Below, one piece after another: positions 18,118-42,438 of a stretch of DNA of 44,760 bases; positions within the stretch are counted from its first letter, which is position 1; each line of letters begins with the position of its first letter. This stretch comes from Candidatus Aenigmatarchaeota archaeon (GTDB taxonomy: Archaea; Aenigmatarchaeota; Aenigmatarchaeia; QMZS01): assembly GCA_023134135.1 (NCBI GenBank), contig JAGLVB010000019.1:1-44760 (forward strand), given 5' to 3'. The notes under the pieces are model-generated. The model was not told the DNA's origin, did not search any database, and worked only from the letters and a program-made list of their open reading frames with translations. The translations under genes and the position numbers were made by a program.

Positions 18118-19554
18118 AAAATAATACAAATAAAAATATGGGAATCTATAACAAAATTTCAGTAGTTTTTTTAATGGGTTTAGTAATAGCGATGAGCGGT
18201 TGTACTACAGATGGCGGCGGAGAATCAGCAATAGCAGCAGGAACGCAGGGAGTAATGATTGAATATTTTGGACCTGATGTAGAATATCCAGTATCTGGTC
18301 AGGACATAACACTTGAAACCAGACTTAGAAATATAGGTGGAGCCGAAGCAAGTAATATTGAAAGTACCATTTATTTATTAAGTTGGGCGACAACAAATAA
18401 GCAAAATGCCTGCACCAGTGGATTAAGACCTCCAAACGCGGAAATTGGCAGGGATGGAGAAGAATGCAAAGTAACTGACGACACAACAGCTCCGGAAGTA
18501 ACAGAAACACAGACTTATGATGTTGGAGTGCATATAGACTACGATTATACCACAACCACCGTAGCAACAGTTTATGCTTTCTCTGAAAATGAATATGTTA
18601 AAAAAATGGAAGCAAACCAGAATATACCTAAAGTAAAAAGTCTAAAAAACAGCAATGCTCCAATTCATGTTGATGTAAGAGCGCAAAATGTGCTGAAAAC
18701 AGGAAGTACTGTTCCTATCACTTTAATTTTCAAAAATGTTGGGGGCGGCAATGTAAAGTATGAAGACCAGCACTATCTAATTGATAGTGCTACAATTACG
18801 GCTGGTAGTAATACTCAAACCTGCAGCGATATAAGAATGAAAGGCGGCAGGGAAGGTTCATGCACAGTGCAAGTGGCAATACCTGCTGGCGAAGAAGTAA
18901 AACTTCCTATAGAAGTAACAACAAGTTACACTTATGTAACTTCTGCTGAAACAAAAATAGTGGTACATCCAAAATTAACCTAAACCCTTTTATTTTTTAT
19001 TTTAGAATATATTTTATTTTAATGAATTAATTATATTTTTACTGGTTTGATTGTGGTGGATTATAAAAAAATAGGTTTGAAAATTGGCATTGAAATACAC
19101 CAGAGACTTGCAACAAAAACAAAACTATTCTGCAACTGCTCAACAAAAATTTCAGATGAAAAAAACCTGTTTTTGAATTCTCAAGAAAATTAAGACCAAC
19201 CGCAAGCGAGACCGGAGAAATTGATAATGCAGGAATTCTTAAAAGAAAAAGAATTCACATATTATTCTTACCCAAACTGCTGCTCTGTTGAAACAGACTC
19301 AAAATTTCCAAATGAACTAAACAAAGAAGCTCTTTTAATCAGTTTACAACTATCTAAAATGCTGAAAATACAAACGCCGGATATATTGCAGATAATGAAA
19401 AAAATTGTTATTGACGGGAGCAACACAATAGGGTACCAGAGAACCTTATTGGTTGGAAAAGGCGATGAGAACTCATATATTGAAACAAGTTTTGGAAAAG
19501 TCTATATTCAGGATTTAAACCTCGAAGAAGAAAGCGCAACAAAAATCAAAGGAA
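18118..19554 (+). repeat. Tandem duplication, first copy (lipoprotein + gatE 5' part)
   Basis: This unit repeats at about 19563-21004. Both copies begin at AAAATAATACAAATAAAAATATGGG and both contain the lipoprotein gene, the same spacer (TTTTATTTTTTATTTTAGAATATATTT) and the first part of gatE. The first copy ends within gatE at ACAAAAATCAAAG and passes straight into the start of copy two. Edges are accurate to about 10 bp. Confidence 0.85.
18138..18983 (+). CDS. Cell-surface lipoprotein, copy A
   Basis: 281 residues. The signal peptide MGIYNKISVVFLMGLVIAMSGC ends in a lipobox with Cys22, so it is probably lipid-anchored outside the membrane. Two beta domains of the CARDB/immunoglobulin-like kind follow: YPVSGQDITLETRLRNIGGAEASNI (about 55-80) and STVPITLIFKNVGGGNVKYEDQHYLI (about 195-220). 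Three paired Cys outside the lipobox could form disulfides. It is a tandem duplicate of 19583-20431, nearly identical in the first half and more divergent in the second. Ligand unknown. Confidence 0.75.
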   Translation: MGIYNKISVVFLMGLVIAMSGCTTDGGGESAIAAGTQGVMIEYFGPDVEYPVSGQDITLETRLRNIGGAEASNIESTIYLLSWATTNKQNACTSGLRPPNAEIGRDGEECKVTDDTTAPEVTETQTYDVGVHIDYDYTTTTVATVYAFSENEYVKKMEANQNIPKVKSLKNSNAPIHVDVRAQNVLKTGSTVPITLIFKNVGGGNVKYEDQHYLIDSATITAGSNTQTCSDIRMKGGREGSCTVQVAIPAGEEVKLPIEVTTSYTYVTSAETKIVVHPKLT

Positions 19555-19559
19555 ACTAA
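19053..19559 (+). pseudogene. Truncated, frameshifted gatE 5' copy
   Basis: This copies the first 170 or so codons of gatE. The start codon is GTG instead of ATG. One A is missing from the run after TTCAGATG (7 instead of 8), which leads to a TAA (after CAAGAAAAT). An 8-base deletion near 19226 restores the frame, so the ORF at 19221 reads in the normal GatE frame. The copy ends abruptly at ATKIKGN where the second repeat unit begins. It cannot make an active enzyme. Confidence 0.88.
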
Positions 19560-19562
19560 AAT

Positions 19563-22280: not shown

Positions 22281-25200
22281 TTACCCTCTAATGCAACTCA
22301 CAATTATATTGTAATCTGTTATGCCTGTTTTATTTATGTGGGTGGTGATACCTCCATAAGATGCGCATACATAGTCACATTCACCGAAAAATACGGCGTA
22401 AGAATTGTTTGAATCATATTGCGTAGAAGACCAATAATAATTGTTGTCACTTCCAAAATAATCATTATATAACTCTGACCCGCGCAGTCCAACCATAATA
22501 TCTTTACTGGGAAGAACCCAATCCTCCTGTCCACCGTACTTCAACTTATCGCAGTGATTACAGGCCTGATAATCGGAGCCACCCCCAATACAAGAAGGTT
22601 TATTAATATCATACCCGCCCCATATATATCCTGTAAAATCTGTTGGAGTCCAGCATTTATTAGTATTACAATCTATGTAAACTTCATCTCCATCTAAATT
22701 TTTAACGCAATAACCTGTTCCCCCGCATGAACATCCGGAATAACCGCAATCCGTATCGCAATAATCTATCTCCCCATCCAAATCATCATCAATTCCATTA
22801 GAACAATCTGTTTCCGGGGGTCTGCGAACGCAACGAATGGAAGATTCTGTATTTTTATAATCTATCTGGATATTACCAGTACCTACACAGTCCATAAAGT
22901 AAGACGTACTACTATCGGCTTCAGTAGAAGACCAGTAAGTATTAGGATAAGGGTCATCAAAACAAGCACCACCGAGACAAGTGTTGGAGTTGCACAACTC
23001 AGTAAGTATATCTTTATCAGGAAGAACCCAATCATCAAATCCGCCATAATCATCTAAATTTTCACAGTAATTGCACGCTGGTCGGTCAGCAATTCCAATA
23101 CAGGAATCTTTTAGATTGTAATTTTCTTCATCACACCCTTCTCGAATATCTTCACATTCTGCTATTTCATCTTCTATAGTCATTTCACTGCAATCAGGTA
23201 AATCTTTACAATTAGAGGTTCCATATGGTTTTATATCACTCCAAAATTTTAACTCTGTGCCTCCAGCATTCCTTAAAACCGGTGTCCAGCAAACATCATT
23301 GGCGCAATCAACATATATTGTGTCTCCTCCCACAGTATATTTTTCATAACCATCTCCTTCACAACTGCAGGTTCCATCAAAAGTACCCTCTCCATCTTCG
23401 CCCCCGGTGCAATACTCAGAATAATCATCCGAACCTGCAGCACAAGTCGAACCATCACATTTTAAATTATAATTACAAGTGCAAGGTGGAACAGAACATG
23501 TTATTTCATCACAATCTCTATGAGGCGGAGAAACACAACCGCTTAAATCAGTTGACTCGCATTCCTCAATCCCTTCTACTATCCCATCCCCGCAAATTGG
23601 GTCTAATTCTAAAGCAGTATATCTCAAAATTAACGCGCTTCCAGTATAAAAGAAATACTGGTTATCTAATAAACCCGGAGCGCTTATTTCAAGTTCGCAA
23701 GTATAATCTCCTGACGAAATAAGTCCTTCAAAAATATTGTTTTTTTCTTCAATAGCAATATTTTTATTTATGTCGCAATCACCTGTTCCTATTATTTTTA
23801 CATTTCCATTGTAATTTTTTTTATCAAAGAAAACCATTATTTTTACATGCGCTGGTTCATCTAAATAAGTGTTTAATTTCAAAGTTGTTTTATAAATATT
23901 CGTGTCTTTCGAAACCAATATTCTTGAATTCTTATCTTCAACAATAATATTTTTGCAGCGCCAATTTCCATCCTGACATACGCAGTTATATTCACTGGAT
24001 TGAGCTGCTTCACCCTTTCCAACACAGACTCCTGTTTTTAATCCGCATTTTCCTTCAGGACAGCAAATGTTATCACTCCGGTTATATAATGTGAACTTAC
24101 AAAAAAGGTTTCCAGTTGTATCCTCTGAATCAGCGCAATCGCAATCTCTGTAGCATAATTCTCCTTCATCTCTCTTACCCCATATTTCATCCCTGCATTC
24201 CCATAAACAGGTTTCTCCATTAATATTGAATTTGTGTCCCCCTTCTTCATAACATACCTCTCTATGAGCGCAGGTTCCTTTAGGGCAACAATAATACTTA
24301 GTCTCATCATAAGCAATATTTGAAGGATTATCCTGAGAACAATAAGAATTTGGCCAACATTCACCCTCTAAATGATCGCACTCGTAACCATCCGGGGTGT
24401 AACAATCAACATGAAAATCAAATTTTTCTCCCTGTATATTTTCAAGTAAAGAAAATGTCCCCACAGCGGTATCCTTATATTGTTTTGAAATTTTCTGGTC
24501 TCCCTCACCCTCAGTTCCAGAACCATAAAGCGTTTTGGAAAGTCCTATCTTAACAAAATCTTCACCAGGCACAATATAAGCAACAACATCCTTTGTTTTT
24601 CCCGGGAATGAAACCGGATAAACCAAATAAGAATTATGATAACCTCCTGAAGGATTATAAGGATTTGTGTATTTTGGTTCCAGATTATAAAATAAAGGAA
24701 AATCTGATATTGTTTTCCCGCAATTATCTGTGAAATCCTCTGCATTGCCTGTAATAAAATTCCACATTCCATCAATGCATTTTAAAGAATCTCCCTGATA
24801 CTGTATTACGGCTCCATTTGAATAACAATACGAATCAGTTAACTCAGGATCTGCAATACCCGCACCCTTGGTTCTAGACCCTCCATTCAGGATTTCTGCA
24901 TCCAATCCCAGATGAGCGCATTGCCCGGAAGGACAACAATAGTTATGCCCATTTACAAAATCAGGAGCGCAATTTCTTGAAGTGCATGAATGAGAATCAT
25001 TTATTTGAGAAGAATCGCACCTATAATAATTCTTGATTGTGCACCAACTGCAGGTGCAGTAAGGTCCAGATGGTTTAGTTCTTTTTTTATTTTTACGATT
25101 TCGATAAGTATAATAACTTCCATAAGTTTCGTAATCTGCCTCATATTTGTCGCCATGAGCGCTGCAATCCCCCACAACATTACGACCGCAGTTAGCAAAT

Positions 25201-25745
25201 TCGGGCCCATCAAAAGAAACCCCATTCCGTTCTGCCTGATGAGCGCACCAACCTATGCAATAATCAGGTTCGCATCTGCAACCATTAGAACATTTTCCCC
25301 AATTGCCGCAGTACTTGTCATTTGTACGCAATGAATACGGGTTACATGTCGTACGCCCGCTGGACCCACAATAAGGTCTACGATAAACATCCTGATTGGA
25401 TTTATATTTATATGAGGCATTACCAAAAGGAGGATAATAAGTTGCTTCGGTATCCCCTTCATAAATAGACACTAATCGCTTGCTTTGTGTGGTGGTATCT
25501 CCACACTCACAAACATGGTTTCCGCAATAATCACAAGTTTCATAACTGTGAGAATCACATGAAGTTTGGGTATAACACTCCTCACATTCACAGGTACCAC
25601 ATGAGGTAACACCTTCGTTACAAGTGCAATTAACCTGACAAGTTCTACAGGTAGGCATGCAACAACACATACAACCAAACCCGACCTGAACAAAAAGTCC
25701 AAAAATCAGAAAAAAACCCAAAGATAAATTAAATATATACCTCAT
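22281..25745 (-). CDS. Giant cysteine-rich secreted protein with two Lcl/DUF1566-like domains
   Basis: 1154 residues. A signal peptide (about 1-24) leads into an extremely Cys-rich segment (CMCCCMPTCRTCQVNCTCNEG...), so the mature protein is probably exported and disulfide-bonded. Cys clusters recur throughout (CCPSGQCAH, CCPKGTCAH, CCPEGKCG). The C-terminal third holds two related modules, about 800-975 and 985-1154. Each has a CWTP strand, a (C)NxC segment, DWVLP(D/S)KDI (near 905 and 1075) and YWSST, and ends in (R/S)C(V/I)R, the pattern of Lcl C-terminal (DUF1566) domains. TDCSNGIDDDLDGEIDYCDTDC between them is a Ca-binding-type loop. Probably a surface or adhesion protein; function unknown. 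Confidence 0.75.
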   Translation of the reverse strand: MRYIFNLSLGFFLIFGLFVQVGFGCMCCCMPTCRTCQVNCTCNEGVTSCGTCECEECYTQTSCDSHSYETCDYCGNHVCECGDTTTQSKRLVSIYEGDTEATYYPPFGNASYKYKSNQDVYRRPYCGSSGRTTCNPYSLRTNDKYCGNWGKCSNGCRCEPDYCIGWCAHQAERNGVSFDGPEFANCGRNVVGDCSAHGDKYEADYETYGSYYTYRNRKNKKRTKPSGPYCTCSWCTIKNYYRCDSSQINDSHSCTSRNCAPDFVNGHNYCCPSGQCAHLGLDAEILNGGSRTKGAGIADPELTDSYCYSNGAVIQYQGDSLKCIDGMWNFITGNAEDFTDNCGKTISDFPLFYNLEPKYTNPYNPSGGYHNSYLVYPVSFPGKTKDVVAYIVPGEDFVKIGLSKTLYGSGTEGEGDQKISKQYKDTAVGTFSLLENIQGEKFDFHVDCYTPDGYECDHLEGECWPNSYCSQDNPSNIAYDETKYYCCPKGTCAHREVCYEEGGHKFNINGETCLWECRDEIWGKRDEGELCYRDCDCADSEDTTGNLFCKFTLYNRSDNICCPEGKCGLKTGVCVGKGEAAQSSEYNCVCQDGNWRCKNIIVEDKNSRILVSKDTNIYKTTLKLNTYLDEPAHVKIMVFFDKKNYNGNVKIIGTGDCDINKNIAIEEKNNIFEGLISSGDYTCELEISAPGLLDNQYFFYTGSALILRYTALELDPICGDGIVEGIEECESTDLSGCVSPPHRDCDEITCSVPPCTCNYNLKCDGSTCAAGSDDYSEYCTGGEDGEGTFDGTCSCEGDGYEKYTVGGDTIYVDCANDVCWTPVLRNAGGTELKFWSDIKPYGTSNCKDLPDCSEMTIEDEIAECEDIREGCDEENYNLKDSCIGIADRPACNYCENLDDYGGFDDWVLPDKDILTELCNSNTCLGGACFDDPYPNTYWSSTEADSSTSYFMDCVGTGNIQIDYKNTESSIRCVRRPPETDCSNGIDDDLDGEIDYCDTDCGYSGCSCGGTGYCVKNLDGDEVYIDCNTNKCWTPTDFTGYIWGGYDINKPSCIGGGSDYQACNHCDKLKYGGQEDWVLPSKDIMVGLRGSELYNDYFGSDNNYYWSSTQYDSNNSYAVFFGECDYVCASYGGITTHINKTGITDYNIIVSCIRG

Positions 25746-25786: not shown

Positions 25787-26110
25787 TTATTTATATTCCC
25801 TCAATTCCTTTTCGAGTTCAGCCACTCTCTTCTCTTCCGCGGCTTCTGTTTTTCTCTTTTTACTGGATAATTCCTCATAAACATTCTTCAATCCATGTTC
25901 AACAGAAGCAGCAATCCTATTTCTGTCAAGTCGCCTCAAATCCTGTCCTTCCAAAGTTCTCAACTCCTGTTCCACACTGTCTAATTGATTTAAAATCCTG
26001 CTTTTAGAAGAACCTTCCAATCTCAAAGCTTTTAACCTATATCTGCACCATTTTTTTCGTAAACCCCTTATCCTTCCATTAAAACCAAAAATTGAATCAA
26101 ATCTAAACAT
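25787..26110 (-). CDS. Basic coiled-coil protein, unknown
   Basis: 107 residues, family not recognised. It is strongly charged and predicted helical: an Arg-rich N-terminal part (RIRGLRKKWCRYRLKALRLEGSSKSRIL) followed by two Glu/Lys/Leu-rich helices (about 45-60 and 80-105) with coiled-coil spacing. No signal peptide or membrane segment is seen. It is divergent from prefoldin beta with only 26 bp between starts, so the promoters overlap. Confidence 0.6.
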   Translation of the reverse strand: MFRFDSIFGFNGRIRGLRKKWCRYRLKALRLEGSSKSRILNQLDSVEQELRTLEGQDLRRLDRNRIAASVEHGLKNVYEELSSKKRKTEAAEEKRVAELEKELREYK

Positions 26111-31408: not shown

Positions 31409-32446
31409 TTAGTCTATAAATTCATTCTGGACAAATTCTCTTGAAATATTTAACTTTTCAAAAATCTGATAATCATTCACAGACAGTCCCTTGAGTTCAC
31501 TTAATTTAGGCACATTCTCAGGTGTTTCAACATCCCTTGTTGGCATCTGCATGGCTTTTGTCTCTGAGAGTTTTTTCTCAATTTCTTTTGAAAGCAGGTA
31601 ATCTATCAATATCTTCCCGTTTTTCTCGTGAGGCGCCCCATTGATCAACATCACTGAGTTTGGGATTATTAGGGTTCCTGATTGTTCTTTTCTCTGATCA
31701 GGAAACACCATCTTAACAGGTTTCCCGTCAACAACTGCATCATTTGCATCATCGGTGTCTGTAATTCCAATCCAGCACTCGCCCGCAACAACCTGGTCTC
31801 TTACCATTGAATTGCTTGACACAATTTGTATTTCATTTTCTTTTAAATTTAACAAAAATTCTTTTGCTCCTTCATCCCCCATCATTGCAAACAACGCGGC
31901 TATATGGGAACCTGTTGTCCCAAATAAAGGATTTGCGAGGCACACTTTTCCTTTCCATTTCTCATCGGTGAGTTCATAAATTGAAGTGGGGGCTTCGCTC
32001 TCATTAACCAACTCAGTATTATAAATTAAAACCCTTGCTCTTGCCGCAAACCCTATCCAGTAACATTCCTTATCTTTATATTTTTCAGAAATATTTATAC
32101 TGCTTACAGAACAATATGGTTTGGATATAAATTCGTCCTTTAATTGTATTGACCTGCTCACTTCATTGTTCCAGAAAACATCTGCTCGGGGGTTGTCTTT
32201 TTCAGCAATTAATCTATTAACCAACCCAACGGTTTTTGTTAATTCTGTATCATATTTAATCTTAACTTTCATTCCGGTTTTTTCTTCAAATTCTTTCAGA
32301 ATAGGTTCGCTGTAATCCTGATCATGAGCAACATAAATCACAACCGTTCTGCCAATAACCTCCTGAACGCTCCACATTATTCCCATCACAATCATTATTG
32401 CAACAAAACTTCCAACAAGATAAACAACAATGGATTGGCCTTTCAT
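31409..32446 (-). CDS. ABC transporter solute-binding protein, Fe(III)/phosphonate-like class
   Basis: 345 residues. The N-terminal hydrophobic segment (about 7-26) acts as an uncleaved anchor. The binding-protein fold is visible: VVIYVAHDQDYSEPILKEFEEKTGMKVKIKYDTELTKTVGLVNRLIAEKDNPRADVFWNNE, GFAARARVLIYNTELV, WKGKVCLANPLFGTTGSHIAALFAMMG and SGTLIIPNSVMLINGAPH. This matches the iron(III)/2-aminoethylphosphonate/thiamine type. Its ligand cannot be fixed. No permease or ATPase gene is in the window. Two TGGTCA direct repeats lie upstream. Confidence 0.86.
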   Translation of the reverse strand: MKGQSIVVYLVGSFVAIMIVMGIMWSVQEVIGRTVVIYVAHDQDYSEPILKEFEEKTGMKVKIKYDTELTKTVGLVNRLIAEKDNPRADVFWNNEVSRSIQLKDEFISKPYCSVSSINISEKYKDKECYWIGFAARARVLIYNTELVNESEAPTSIYELTDEKWKGKVCLANPLFGTTGSHIAALFAMMGDEGAKEFLLNLKENEIQIVSSNSMVRDQVVAGECWIGITDTDDANDAVVDGKPVKMVFPDQRKEQSGTLIIPNSVMLINGAPHEKNGKILIDYLLSKEIEKKLSETKAMQMPTRDVETPENVPKLSELKGLSVNDYQIFEKLNISREFVQNEFID

Positions 32447-32518
32447 AATTATATATTTATAATTAGATTAAAATAAATTACCAATTCTATATTCATCAAC
32501 TGTCATTGTACATTTTTT

Positions 32519-32544
32519 TGGTCATAAGTATATTTTTCTGGTCA
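32519..32544. promoter_or_regulatory. Direct repeat TGGTCA spaced by two helical turns
   Basis: TTTTTTTGGTCA (ending 32524) and TTTTTCTGGTCA (ending 32544) are repeated exactly 20 bp apart, 73-98 bp upstream of the solute-binding gene start at 32446. The spacing puts both on the same face of DNA, as for an operator. This is inference from sequence only. Confidence 0.4.
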
Positions 32545-32574
32545 ATATATAAAAAGAAAATAAAACATTCAAAA

Positions 32575-33591
32575 TCATTTTGGAACAAACTCGTCTGTGT
32601 ACATTTCTGAGATTGGGGTTTTCTTGGTTATTATCCCTAAATCAAATAGTGTATCTTGTGTCATTGTCCATTGGTCTTTGTTGAACTGACCGAGCGGGTA
32701 TTTGTCCGGCTGGTAAACCTCATTTGTAAGTCGTTCCCAATATTCCAACTCAATATCCCTAAATTTTTCTGCGTCAGGATTAAAATTTTTAATATATGCA
32801 TCAACCACTTTTTCTGGGTTATCCATGGCATACTTAAATCCTTTATTACTTGCTCTAACAAATTTCTTAATCAATTCAGGGTTTTCTTTTAACGTATTTT
32901 CATTAGTTATGATAGAACAACCAGCGAAATTTGCATTATAATCCTTTGCATACCATACATTAATATCCACGCCTTCCCCTTGCAGTATAAGTTCATGAAT
33001 TATATACCCCGCAATTGCGTCTGCTTCTCCTCCTAATAGTGTAGGAATCAACGCGGCTCCAACTGGAACGAAATTTACATTATTATAATCTACGCCAGAA
33101 TTTTTCAGTATCGCCTTCGCCGCAATATCTGGTGGACTGCCAGGACCTGGTATTGCAATTGTTTTACCGTCCAAGTCTGATGGTTTGGTGATTGGTGAAT
33201 CTTTCTTTGTGATAACACTGAATAAATCACTATGTTCGTTTTGATATACCGCTACTATTGGTAAATCTTTTGATCTAGCCATGATAATAGAATCTCCGCT
33301 AGCGTATCCAAAATCAACATTTTCAGAAACAACCTGTTTAACTGAGCCGAAACTGCCTTCAGATGTATATAACATTGTAACACTCAGTCCTTCATCAGCA
33401 TAATATCCATTATTTATCGCTGTATAAAACGCACACCATTCGGAGTTCATAACAAAAGGCATCATAATCGTAACATCTTCCGTCTCCGAAGTTTCTGTAT
33501 TCCCGCCATAGAAACCAATTCCTATCACGGCAATTATTAGAACCGCTAAACTAATTGTTCCATATATCAAAGTATTGTTTTTCTTTGCCAT
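32575..33591 (-). CDS. ABC transporter solute-binding protein, NMT1/SsuA-like
   Basis: 338 residues from the ATG at 33591. The ORF track begins 23 codons earlier at a TTG, but a TATA-like TATATATA sits about 20-28 bases before 33591. An N-terminal membrane anchor (about 7-28) precedes the periplasmic-type fold: MPFVMNSEWCAFYTAINNGYYADEGLSVTMLYTSEGSFGSVKQVVSENVDFGYASGDSII, KPSDLDGKTIAIPGPGSPPDIAAKAIL and GEADAIAGYI. The family takes up pyrimidine (thiamine) precursors, taurine or sulfonates; the ligand is undetermined. No permease or ATPase is adjacent. Confidence 0.87.
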   Translation of the reverse strand: MAKKNNTLIYGTISLAVLIIAVIGIGFYGGNTETSETEDVTIMMPFVMNSEWCAFYTAINNGYYADEGLSVTMLYTSEGSFGSVKQVVSENVDFGYASGDSIIMARSKDLPIVAVYQNEHSDLFSVITKKDSPITKPSDLDGKTIAIPGPGSPPDIAAKAILKNSGVDYNNVNFVPVGAALIPTLLGGEADAIAGYIIHELILQGEGVDINVWYAKDYNANFAGCSIITNENTLKENPELIKKFVRASNKGFKYAMDNPEKVVDAYIKNFNPDAEKFRDIELEYWERLTNEVYQPDKYPLGQFNKDQWTMTQDTLFDLGIITKKTPISEMYTDEFVPK

Positions 33592-33620
33592 ATTAATATT
33601 TGAATTTGTGGTATATATAA

Positions 33621-33646
33621 CTGCGTGGTTGGGGAGACCACCACAG
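33621..33646. promoter_or_regulatory. Hairpin palindrome next to the TATA box of the SsuA-like gene
   Basis: CTGCGTGGT-TGGGGAG-ACCACCACAG forms a 9-bp imperfect inverted repeat, directly upstream of the TATA-like element at 33610-33618. This is where a transcription factor would contact an archaeal promoter. No riboswitch signature (for example a TPP motif) was found in the 400-bp leader region. Confidence 0.4.
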
Positions 33647-33801
33647 AAATCAGTCTTCAAGAACCTATTTCCACAAAAGGATAAATTTCATGCAGTTTAC
33701 TGACACATTTTCAGTATAAATCTTATGGCATACTGACCTATATTAATCACACCTATTTCTAAGATTAAAGTTTTCTATTCTTTAAATATTATTATAAAGT
33801 T

Positions 33802-39335: not shown

Positions 39336-40766
39336 ATGGAAATAATTAAAACACAGATTTTAATCATTGGCGGGGGGGCGGCTGGATTAAATGCAGCTCT
39401 AAATTTAAAATCCAATGATATCACTTTAATAGAAAAAAACGGGTCCAATTCAGTTCTCTGTCCCTGGAATTTAATGATAAAATCTAAAAAGGATTTATTG
39501 AAAGAAATTTTAGAAACAGGATGCAATAGCACGGATTCCGAACTGCTGGATATTTTTTCAAAAAACTATGAAAATATTGTTGAAGATTTAAAAAAAACAG
39601 GAATTAAATTTAGAAAATCAAACCTGGGTTTAATTCCTAACTACACACAACCAGGAAAAGAAGTTAGAAAAATATTCCTGAATAAACTAAAAGAAAAACA
39701 AGTAAAATTGCTAAAAGGAAGCGTAGAAAAATTATTAATTGATAAAAATAAAAAAATTATTGGGGTTAAAATTTCTCTTTTTAATTCAAAGAAAATAAAA
39801 ATATTCTTTAATTATTTGGTCTTGGCTGCTGGGGGGCTTGGAGGATTTTTTAAATTTAGAACTGGAAGTGGAGATTCTGATGGAAGTATATTGGCTCTTT
39901 GTTATGAAGCGGGACTTAAAATAAGGGATTTAGAATTCATGATGTTTCATCCATTTCTTCTGGTTGATAAAAGACTCCCAAGAGTTTTAGTTTCAGGAGA
40001 CCTTTTAACTAAAATGGAATATGAAAATGAAAAAGGGGAAAAATTCTTATCAAATGATATTGCTGATGCTTTAAAAACCAACAAACACCATAGGGTCTTC
40101 CCAAAAATGACTAAAGAGTTCTATTTGCAGTCGCTAAAAAGCAGAATTTTTGGAAGATTAATTTGTTCAAATAAATGGTTTGAAAAATTCAAAAAAGAAA
40201 ATGAATTTGGATTTATTTTTAAAAATTTTAAAAAAAATGACCTTAAAAAAATTGAATTGCATCCTGCGTTCCATTTCTCAATTGGAGGTCTTGTAATTAA
40301 CAAAAATTCTCAAACAAGTCAGAAAAACATTTATGCGGCAGGAGAAATAACTGGAGGGTTGCATGGTCATAACAGAATAGGGGGTTTAGCAATACTGGAA
40401 GCATTAATATTTGGAAAAAAAACAGCAATGGAAATTAATAAAAAAATAATGAAAGAAAAAGAAATAATAATACCTGAAAAAATAGAGGGGCTTGGGATGC
40501 TGGGCTTATCAGATGAAATAAAAAACAAAGCCTGGGAAGTATTGGGTCCTGTAAAAAACAAGGAGGATTTAAATAAAATGAAAAGCTTTTTAAAAAATAA
40601 AAAGAATGCAACTTCTCAGGAAAAACTGCTGGAAAAAATTATAGAAATATGTTTATTAAGAAACGAATCTATAGGAGCATTTTATAGACAGGATTTGAGG
40701 AAAAAAGAAACAGCAAGATCTTCTTTCTTAATAGATAAAAAAATTATCTTTAAATATGGCAAATAA
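39336..40766 (+). CDS. FAD-dependent FrdA/NadB-like oxidoreductase
   Basis: 476 residues. The N-terminal FAD site is ILIIGGGAAGLNAAL (about 8-22). GSGDSDGSILALCYEAGLKIRDLEFMMFHP (about 180-209) and AAGEITGGLHGHNRIGGLAILEALIFGKKTAMEI (about 333-366) match fumarate reductase, flavocytochrome c and L-aspartate oxidase subunits. The usual RGEGG segment and the Tyr of the HYxxGG motif are changed (FSIGGL), so substrate use is likely altered. It overlaps the TyrA-PheA gene by 11 bp and follows ilvE by 3 bp, so the three are one operon. The physiological substrate is unknown; no NadA/NadC partners are seen. Confidence 0.85.
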   Translation: MEIIKTQILIIGGGAAGLNAALNLKSNDITLIEKNGSNSVLCPWNLMIKSKKDLLKEILETGCNSTDSELLDIFSKNYENIVEDLKKTGIKFRKSNLGLIPNYTQPGKEVRKIFLNKLKEKQVKLLKGSVEKLLIDKNKKIIGVKISLFNSKKIKIFFNYLVLAAGGLGGFFKFRTGSGDSDGSILALCYEAGLKIRDLEFMMFHPFLLVDKRLPRVLVSGDLLTKMEYENEKGEKFLSNDIADALKTNKHHRVFPKMTKEFYLQSLKSRIFGRLICSNKWFEKFKKENEFGFIFKNFKKNDLKKIELHPAFHFSIGGLVINKNSQTSQKNIYAAGEITGGLHGHNRIGGLAILEALIFGKKTAMEINKKIMKEKEIIIPEKIEGLGMLGLSDEIKNKAWEVLGPVKNKEDLNKMKSFLKNKKNATSQEKLLEKIIEICLLRNESIGAFYRQDLRKKETARSSFLIDKKIIFKYGK

Positions 40767-42438
40767 AAAACCAATAATCGGAATAATCGGGGGCAACGGA
40801 AAAATGGGTATTTGGTTTAAGAATTTTTTCTTAAAAGAAAAACTGGAAGTAATAATCTCAGACCTTGATACTAAACTAAGTGATGAAGAATTGGCTGGAA
40901 AAGCTGATATTATTATCATTTCCGTGCCTATCAATAAAGTTTCGGAAGTGGTGAAAGAAATTAAAAAAAATATTAAAGAAGATGCCTTGTTAAGTGATTT
41001 TACTTCCATAAAAACCGGACCTATAAATGAAATGAAAAAGGTAAAATCCGGGGTTTTAGGGATGCATCCTTTATTTGGTCCTTTATGTTCTGATATAAAA
41101 GGTCAGACTATAATTTTCTGCAGAGTAAGAGATAATCTCTGGGTTATATTTTTAAAAAATATTTTCCAAAAAAATGGGGTAAAGATAATAGAATTATCTC
41201 CTAAAAAACACGATGAACAAGTCGCATTTTTACAAGCGTTGCTGCATTTCACAAATATATCTTTCTCTTATTTTCTTTATTTAAAAAAATTCAAATCAAT
41301 CCCTGATTTTATAACTCCTTTATTCAAACTTCAGAGTTTAGTGTTTGGCAGAATTTTAGCGCAAAATCCAGAACTTTACGCAAATATTGAAATAGAAAAT
41401 CCTTATTTCAAAAAAATTTCAGAAGAATATGTTAAAGAACTCTTTGAATTTCAAAAAGATATAAAAGATAAAAAATATGAAGTATTTCTAAAGAAATTCA
41501 AATCATCCCAATCTTATCTGGCTGATTCCATAAACATCGCTGAAGAAAAAAGTATGGAGATTTTAAAATTATTGGATAAACAACCAGTAAGACTTGGAAA
41601 AATAAAAAAAATAAATCTTGAAAGAGCTAAAATAGGTTATTTAGGTCCTGAAGGCACTTTTTCATGGATGGCGGCAAATAAAATATTTTGCAATACCTCG
41701 CAATTATGCCCTTTTACGAATATTAAAGATATTTTTAGAGCTCTTTCCAATGAAGAAATAGATTTTGGCATTGTTCCTATTGAAAATAGTATTGGGGGTC
41801 TTGTTTCTGAAACAATGAATTCTTTTACGGATAATTTTATTTATTCTTTAGGTTCCTTCAAAATACATATCCACCACTGTCTTACTTCCCAAGGGAAAGA
41901 TATCAAAAAAATTAAAATTATAAAATCCCATATTCAAGCCCTCTCCCAGTGTCGGGACTGGCTTGATAAAACATTTCCAAATATATTGAAAGAATCCACC
42001 ACAAGCACGATTGCTCCTATTTTAGAAGATTTTTCAGAGAACACTGGTTTTATATTGCCTCAATCTACAGCGAATAAATATAAATTAAATATTTTAGCGG
42101 AAAATATCGAAGACAGCAAAGAAAATTTTACAAAGTTTTTTCTAATCTCGCGAAATATTCAAAGAGATATAATTAAAAAGGTGAATTTAAAAAACAAAAA
42201 GACTCTTTTATTGCTGGCTGTTTATGACCGTGTAGGTATTCTTGGAGATATACTGAATGTTTTTACAGAGAGGGAAATAAATTTATCAGCTCTTCATTCT
42301 ATTCCTTCCCCCGCCCTCCCATGGGATTACTTATTCTTCATAGAATTAGAAAAATCTTATTTTTCGGAAGAATGTAAAAAAACACTTAAAGAATTGAAAA
42401 AATATTGTCCTTTTATAAAAATCCTTGGTGTGGCTTAA
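40756..42438 (+). CDS. Fused TyrA-PheA (prephenate dehydrogenase + prephenate dehydratase + ACT)
   Basis: 560 residues. TyrA part (about 1-285): GIIGGNGKMG for NAD(P), LSDFTSIKTGPINEMK, GMHPLFGP, and HDEQVAFLQALLHF. PheA part from about 294: KIGYLGPEGTFSWMAA, FGIVPIENSIGGLVSETMN and a C-terminal NFTKFFLISRN where the usual catalytic Thr-Arg-Phe reads T459-K460-F461. The ACT domain (about 482-560) has DRVGILGDILNVFTEREINLSALHSIPSP and probably senses Phe. No AroQ chorismate mutase domain lies between the two enzymes, although the fused archaeal enzyme of Archaeoglobus has one. Prephenate must then come from elsewhere. Last gene of the ilvE operon. Confidence 0.92.
   Translation: MANKKPIIGIIGGNGKMGIWFKNFFLKEKLEVIISDLDTKLSDEELAGKADIIIISVPINKVSEVVKEIKKNIKEDALLSDFTSIKTGPINEMKKVKSGVLGMHPLFGPLCSDIKGQTIIFCRVRDNLWVIFLKNIFQKNGVKIIELSPKKHDEQVAFLQALLHFTNISFSYFLYLKKFKSIPDFITPLFKLQSLVFGRILAQNPELYANIEIENPYFKKISEEYVKELFEFQKDIKDKKYEVFLKKFKSSQSYLADSINIAEEKSMEILKLLDKQPVRLGKIKKINLERAKIGYLGPEGTFSWMAANKIFCNTSQLCPFTNIKDIFRALSNEEIDFGIVPIENSIGGLVSETMNSFTDNFIYSLGSFKIHIHHCLTSQGKDIKKIKIIKSHIQALSQCRDWLDKTFPNILKESTTSTIAPILEDFSENTGFILPQSTANKYKLNILAENIEDSKENFTKFFLISRNIQRDIIKKVNLKNKKTLLLLAVYDRVGILGDILNVFTEREINLSALHSIPSPALPWDYLFFIELEKSYFSEECKKTLKELKKYCPFIKILGVA

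Follow-up and report, generated by a model that had tools for sequence, protein, structure and literature searches.

The gene at positions 22281..25745 (minus strand) encodes a protein of 1154 amino acids that, judged by comparison with its relatives, is a composite of a core (residues 1-712) and a removable tail (residues 716-1154). We estimate with a probability of about one half that it is a Sec-exported, disulfide-braced modular protein, located on or near the cell surface of an Aenigmatarchaeote and presenting glycan- or protein-binding domains. A disulfide-braced surface binding protein is probably the most economical function. The window, i.e., the whole stretch of 44,760 nucleotides that was analysed, is the complete contig C11 of the genome carrying it (G000; 0.99 Mb, 73% complete).

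An exported protein with 102 cysteines

The open reading frame noted previously in a sequence-only reading of this DNA was confirmed; it is intact, starts with ATG and contains zero internal stop codons. Homologues are present in eight other genomes at about 33-60% identity, so the reading frame is not a product of chance. According to the translation, 102 of the 1154 residues are cysteines (8.8%), and several regions of the protein reach 10-17%. Among the other open reading frames of at least 150 amino acids in the window, the median is 1.1% and none exceeds 2.1%. Thus, the cysteine content is indeed far above normal, as had been claimed, but the abundance of CC and CxC groups reported with it shows no excess over the cysteine content. 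Five CC groups were observed (9.1±2.7 expected) and 12 CxC groups (9.0±2.8 expected); as these frequencies are predicted by the cysteine content, the pair counts add no information. The idea that such a content is unusual for this type of archaeon was not supported: exported proteins with 5-13% cysteine are common in the stretches of the lineage that were compared, which were selected genomic stretches biased towards neighbours of Cys-rich genes.

The N-terminus carries a signal peptide of the classical type (residues 1-24; 25674..25745, minus strand; MRYIFNLSLGFFLIFGLFVQVGFG^C...), which is the sole strongly hydrophobic segment; no other part of the 1154 residues is sufficiently hydrophobic for a transmembrane segment. 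A similar signal peptide is kept in every homologue with a complete N-terminus, which supports the predicted export. No membrane anchor or sorting signal other than the signal peptide was recognised in the protein, and it might be freely secreted rather than cell-bound. Anchoring as a lipoprotein was considered and rejected, since not every homologue has the cysteine at position +1 (VLAPP in P0007).

Architecture of the core

The signal peptide is followed by a hypervariable Cys-rich region (residues 25-140; 25326..25673, minus strand) with 17% cysteine in residues 25-130 and very low model confidence. Here the cysteines vary as well, and 7% of the non-Cys columns are identical in the four closest genomes. 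The remaining part of the core contains three Cys modules, all encoded on the minus strand. Module 1 spans residues 228-332 approximately (24750..25064; CxC...DSHxC..NCAPDF..G..YCCPxGxCAH...CY..G...Q..G..LKC..G.W), module 2 residues 481-560 approximately (24066..24305; YCCPKGTCAH...C..EG...C.W.C....W....E...C..DCDC) and module 3 residues 561-599 approximately (23949..24065; CCPEGKCGL...C....C.C..G.W.C). Their sequences are related, with CCPxGxC starting at residues 270, 486 and 561. They are internal repeats, as the module 1 stretch of the homologue in genome G010 matches the profile of residues 481-715. In residues 481-610, 15 of the 17 cysteines are invariant in eight homologues. In the homologue of G006 (contig C79, L036:14744-17201), a Cys-rich segment has been inserted as a tandem duplication (NTPCNNVCKSGTCAFGQDM... 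/ TTCNDACKSGTCAFGQDM...), which shows that the core grows by repeats.

The structure prediction proposed by the earlier reading succeeded in part. AlphaFold2 gave a good model of residues 481-715 (mean pLDDT 82), in which beta-rich Cys modules are followed by a predicted jelly-roll beta-sandwich (residues 600-712 approximately; 23610..23948, minus strand), which ends with ...YFFYTGSALIL, the natural C-terminus of most homologues. Prediction of the whole core yielded a mean pLDDT of 48 and no usable model for residues 25-480. The likeness of this whole-core model to von Willebrand factor (VWF) and mucin can be disregarded (TM-score 0.08-0.10, rmsd above 30 Å). The PDB folds nearest to the jelly roll are CBM6/CBM35; these matches are weak (best E 1.3e-3, probability 1.0, TM-scores 0.36-0.43 for CBM6 targets). 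Kex2/furin P-domains are also near according to Foldseek. The predicted fold of residues 600-712 thus resembles CBM6/CBM35 and similar jelly rolls, but the best matches have about 8-11% identity with E values of at least 1e-3 and there is no sequence match. Not all jelly rolls bind glycans.

The core was found in one archaeal family and evolves fast

Besides G000, six genomes of the genus have a homologue of the core, as do two further genera within its GTDB family. The search among DPANN archaea suggested earlier thus found relatives, all confined to one family: the best-conserved part, residues 481-715, is present in nine of 156 Aenigmatarchaeota genomes, all belonging to that GTDB family. 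Two genomes of the same genus, G002 and G008 (85% and 70% complete), yielded no core homologue. The named relatives recovered with the core are Candidatus Aenigmatarchaeota, which agrees with the earlier suggestion that this may be a symbiotic (DPANN) archaeon.

Neither Pfam nor NCBIfam contains a model that recognises the core, and permissive thresholds gave no convincing match in Pfam or the PDB. The PDB was also searched by sequence, using the whole protein as well as profiles of the core and of residues 481-715, and gave no match. The core family is, as far as sequence comparison reaches, new to the libraries searched and previously unclassified. A viral origin was rejected, as nothing was found in viral contigs or phage records. 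Judging from where it occurs and from its synteny, the core of 712 residues looks native to its archaeal family. A literature search for Cys-rich secreted proteins of DPANN archaea returned nothing relevant.

Core identity to the three closest relatives is 50-53%, compared with 85-89% for the gene upstream (see below), 88-91% for gatE and 90-94% for MscS. In the core tree the branch leading to G000 has a length of 0.45 changes per site, vs. 0.053 for gatE. Cysteines are selectively retained: in an alignment of eight core sequences, 34 of 62 Cys columns are invariant (55%), compared with 39 of 626 other columns (6%; Fisher p=1e-20, with columns taken as independent and relatedness uncorrected). 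Fast turnover with retained cysteines is the pattern expected for extracellular disulfide-rich domains whose exposed surfaces change.

Genomic neighbourhood

A gene for a small Cys-poor protein of 107 amino acids is located 41 bp upstream (25787..26110, minus strand) and is likely cotranscribed with the Cys-rich gene. The order of the two genes is kept in G001, G004, G007, G009 and G010. The 107-residue protein has relatives in 15 of 40 related genomes that were searched, among them two-domain versions in G005 and G016. Elsewhere in the class these relatives have unrelated neighbours, which does not support a functional partnership with the Cys-rich protein. On the other side of the Cys-rich gene, the convergent neighbour is gatE in the closest genomes; in more distant genomes it is a gene for a 188-residue protein beside uL1/uL10. 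The Cys-rich gene is located among stable chromosomal genes and not on a mobile element.

The window contains several further features. Positions 18138-19561 and 19583 to about 21015 are a tandem duplication with 85% DNA identity, comprising a lipoprotein-like gene (281/282 amino acids) and the 5′ part of gatE. Of the two gatE copies, the one upstream (19221-19559) is a remnant; in the close relatives G001, G004 and G007 the duplicated unit is present once. An open reading frame of 560 amino acids (40756-42438) combines, by inspection, prephenate dehydrogenase, prephenate dehydratase and an ACT-like end, a fusion that is unexpected in a reduced DPANN genome. Two exported solute-binding-like proteins are encoded at 31409-33660 (by inspection, one iron-binding-like and one taurine/nitrate-type-like), with no obvious ABC transporter partners alongside. 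A transposase reading frame with DDE domains (DDE_5, DDE_Tnp_1) is located at the contig end (53-1129).

The C-terminal tail

The tail consists of four parts, all encoded on the minus strand. It starts with a DUF4215-like Cys-rich stalk (residues 716-796, CGDGIVEGIEEC...; 23358..23600), assigned because its start aligns with the DUF4215 that Pfam recognises in the Lcl_C protein of G010; Pfam itself makes no call here. The stalk is followed by a first Lcl_C/DUF1566 module of 180 amino acids (residues 797-976 approximately; 22818..23357), a linker that is acidic by sequence and charge (residues 977-1012, CSNGIDDDLDGEIDYCDTDC; 22710..22817) and appears by inspection to be Ca-binding-like, and a second, divergent Lcl_C/DUF1566 module of 142 amino acids (residues 1013-1154 approximately; 22284..22709), identified by its likeness to the first. 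The whole protein matches Pfam Lcl_C (PF07603) with 57.7 bits (E=1.8e-15; cut-off 34.9). Taken alone, module 1 scores 40.1 bits, above the cut-off, and module 2 scores 26.4 bits, below it. The two modules align with each other at 33% identity (E=3e-14), in agreement with the two C-terminal Lcl-like modules described before. A weak profile match to the Lcl domain in PDB entry 8q4e covers 113 positions (E=0.002).

Most core homologues lack the tail: seven of the eight (G001, G003, G005, G006, G007, G009 and G010) end near the equivalent of residue 712 with a conserved ending of the YFFYTGSALIL type. In G004 the frame continues through the stalk to a TGA codon, which is followed by a shortened Lcl_C stretch. 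The core tree places G000 outside (G004,(G007,G001)) with good support; the gatE tree leaves the order of these four genomes unresolved. According to the core tree, the tail was either ancestral and then decayed or lost, or it was gained twice. The tail thus comes and goes between close relatives, and we infer that it is an exchangeable specificity extension and the core the conserved part.

Lcl_C proteins elsewhere in the phylum

PF07603 is found in six of 156 Aenigmatarchaeota genomes, all from the same family as the core. Further Lcl_C proteins are encoded in G000, G005, G006, G007 and G010. Four of them are exported proteins, of 249 (G000, C29), 435 (G005, C35), 1311 (G007, C10) and 400 (G010, C53) amino acids. 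Their modules are 38-47% identical to module 1 described here, but all four are without the 712-residue core. The G010 protein has the same order of a DUF4215-like part and Lcl_C, though it is an otherwise unrelated exported protein. This order and the presence of Lcl_C proteins in other genomes indicate that the modules are common to several exported proteins.

The G010 protein (L040:7351-8550) starts with a hydrophobic pilin-like segment, which precedes DUF4215 and Lcl_C. The 1311-residue protein of G007 has its Lcl_C at the end and is part of a cluster of Cys-rich exported proteins (L039:7445-17934), which also holds a C25-like peptidase, a papain-like (C1) peptidase and short proteins with pilin-like N-termini. 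These N-termini and a neighbouring membrane protein hinted at a link of the G007 Lcl_C gene to pili, for which Pfam gave no confirmation.

The Lcl_C domain may plausibly have been transferred from bacteria; its patchy occurrence (six of 156 genomes, one family) is what a transfer would give. In the sets compared, namely plasmids (searched with module 1), phages and viral contigs, no donor or relative was found.

Possible oxidation of exported cysteines

The selective conservation of cysteines supports the disulfide-stabilised structure proposed earlier. The suggested search for thiol-disulfide oxidases had a mixed outcome. G000 encodes a membrane-anchored DsbA/GILT-like thioredoxin-fold protein of 377 amino acids (contig C4, L070:1086-2219) with the motifs SYCPYG and RGSPT, which Pfam Thioredoxin_4 matches at 23.9 and 19.3 bits, near the cut-off of 23.2. 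A similar protein is encoded in G006 (L036:10293-11417). The DsbA-like protein is a possible oxidant or isomerase of exported Cys-rich proteins. VKOR, DsbB and DsbD (DsbD_TM) were not found in the nine genomes of the genus, in a search that a divergent oxidase would escape. These genomes are 65-89% complete, which makes it unlikely that a gene missing from all of them is an assembly effect. This raises the question of how an archaeon without detected VKOR, DsbB and DsbD oxidises proteins with dozens of cysteines.

Proposed function and alternative explanations

In the proposed mechanism, the protein would be exported by the Sec pathway via its signal peptide to the cell surface or its vicinity, where the conserved cysteines would pair into disulfides outside the membrane. 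The braced Cys modules would form short rigid units that hold the jelly roll away from the cell and, in the G000 species, also hold out the two C-type-lectin-like Lcl_C domains. The domains presented might bind glycans or proteins of a host, a neighbouring cell or the sediment matrix. Adhesion to a host, as suggested in the sequence-only reading, is plausible. A more specific version sees a DPANN attachment protein with a disulfide stalk oxidised by a DsbA-only pathway and exchangeable Lcl_C tips that recognise surface glycans of the host archaeon, the tips being shuffled among exported proteins and lost in relatives with other partners; this version is speculative and rather unlikely as a whole.

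The very high cysteine content with its regions of 10-17%, the conserved synteny of the core gene beside housekeeping genes and the many further Cys-rich exported proteins of the lineage would also suit a structural coat or matrix protein. Its intermolecular disulfides would generate a protective sheath or part of an S-layer-like envelope, and the Lcl_C tail would be a lineage-specific decoration. A main coat protein would be expected in all members, however, and no homologue was found in the incomplete genomes G002 and G008; in addition, a modular build with a CBM-like fold and lectin-like modules better suits binding. We consider a coat rather unlikely. A role as secreted protease inhibitor or as accessory of surface peptidases, with Cys modules like eukaryotic extracellular ones and a P-domain-like jelly roll, is quite improbable. 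The Foldseek matches to Kex2/furin P-domains and, with low confidence, to the Cys-rich assemblies of VWF, mucin and NEL would agree with this function, but they are weak and unspecific, and no inhibitor family is matched in sequence. C25 and papain-like peptidase genes are located near the Lcl_C gene of G007, but no secreted peptidase adjoins the Cys-rich gene among the neighbours examined.

A secreted enzyme would have its catalytic domain within residues 140-480 and use jelly roll and Lcl_C for substrate targeting. CBM-like modules are frequently found with enzymes, and residues 228-346 contain invariant residues other than cysteine (D250, S251, H252, N258, D262, G266); the DSH and NCAPDF motifs, however, sit inside a Cys module, and the core is without a convincing Pfam or PDB match at permissive thresholds, leaving this possibility as improbable as an inhibitor. 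Diversification of the Lcl_C tail by a diversity-generating retroelement (DGR), which would make this a hypervariable binding protein, was considered because DUF1566, a CLec-fold domain, is the Pfam domain found most often in the diversified target proteins of DGRs elsewhere (PMC6642488) and sits at the C-terminus here. No reverse transcriptase family was matched in the nine (incomplete) genomes of the genus, no near-identical template repeat was found in the window or, by a translated search, in its own incomplete genome, and the stretches that do match elsewhere are diverged module copies; a DGR is extremely improbable.

A disulfide-braced surface binding protein remains our preferred explanation. 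Little is known about how DPANN archaea recognise their partners and keep hold of them. This conserved, fast-evolving and exported family, in which close relatives differ in their recognisable binding modules, offers a concrete candidate for tests.

Comparison with the Legionella adhesin Lcl

In the Lcl adhesin, which is trimeric, an N-terminal helix and the C-terminal domain (CTD) are separated by collagen-like Gly-X-Y repeats. The archaeal protein and Lcl of Legionella pneumophila share a PF07603 family domain at the C-terminus of an exported protein. The remaining protein is unrelated: collagen-like Gly-X-Y repeats are absent from the archaeal translation, and the NCBIfam model for the adhesin (adhesin_Lcl, NF046116) scores 12 bits against a cut-off of 500. 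Lcl contains one copy of the domain, the archaeal protein two. The Lcl-CTD of Legionella has a C-type lectin-like fold without disulfides and binds sulphated glycans/glycosaminoglycans via a basic surface (PMC11162425). The archaeal modules contain many cysteines and are acidic, with net charges of -24 (module 1) and -9 (module 2), values that describe net charge alone. With acidic modules in place of the basic face of Lcl the ligand chemistry must differ, which makes it unlikely that the two proteins bind the same ligand.
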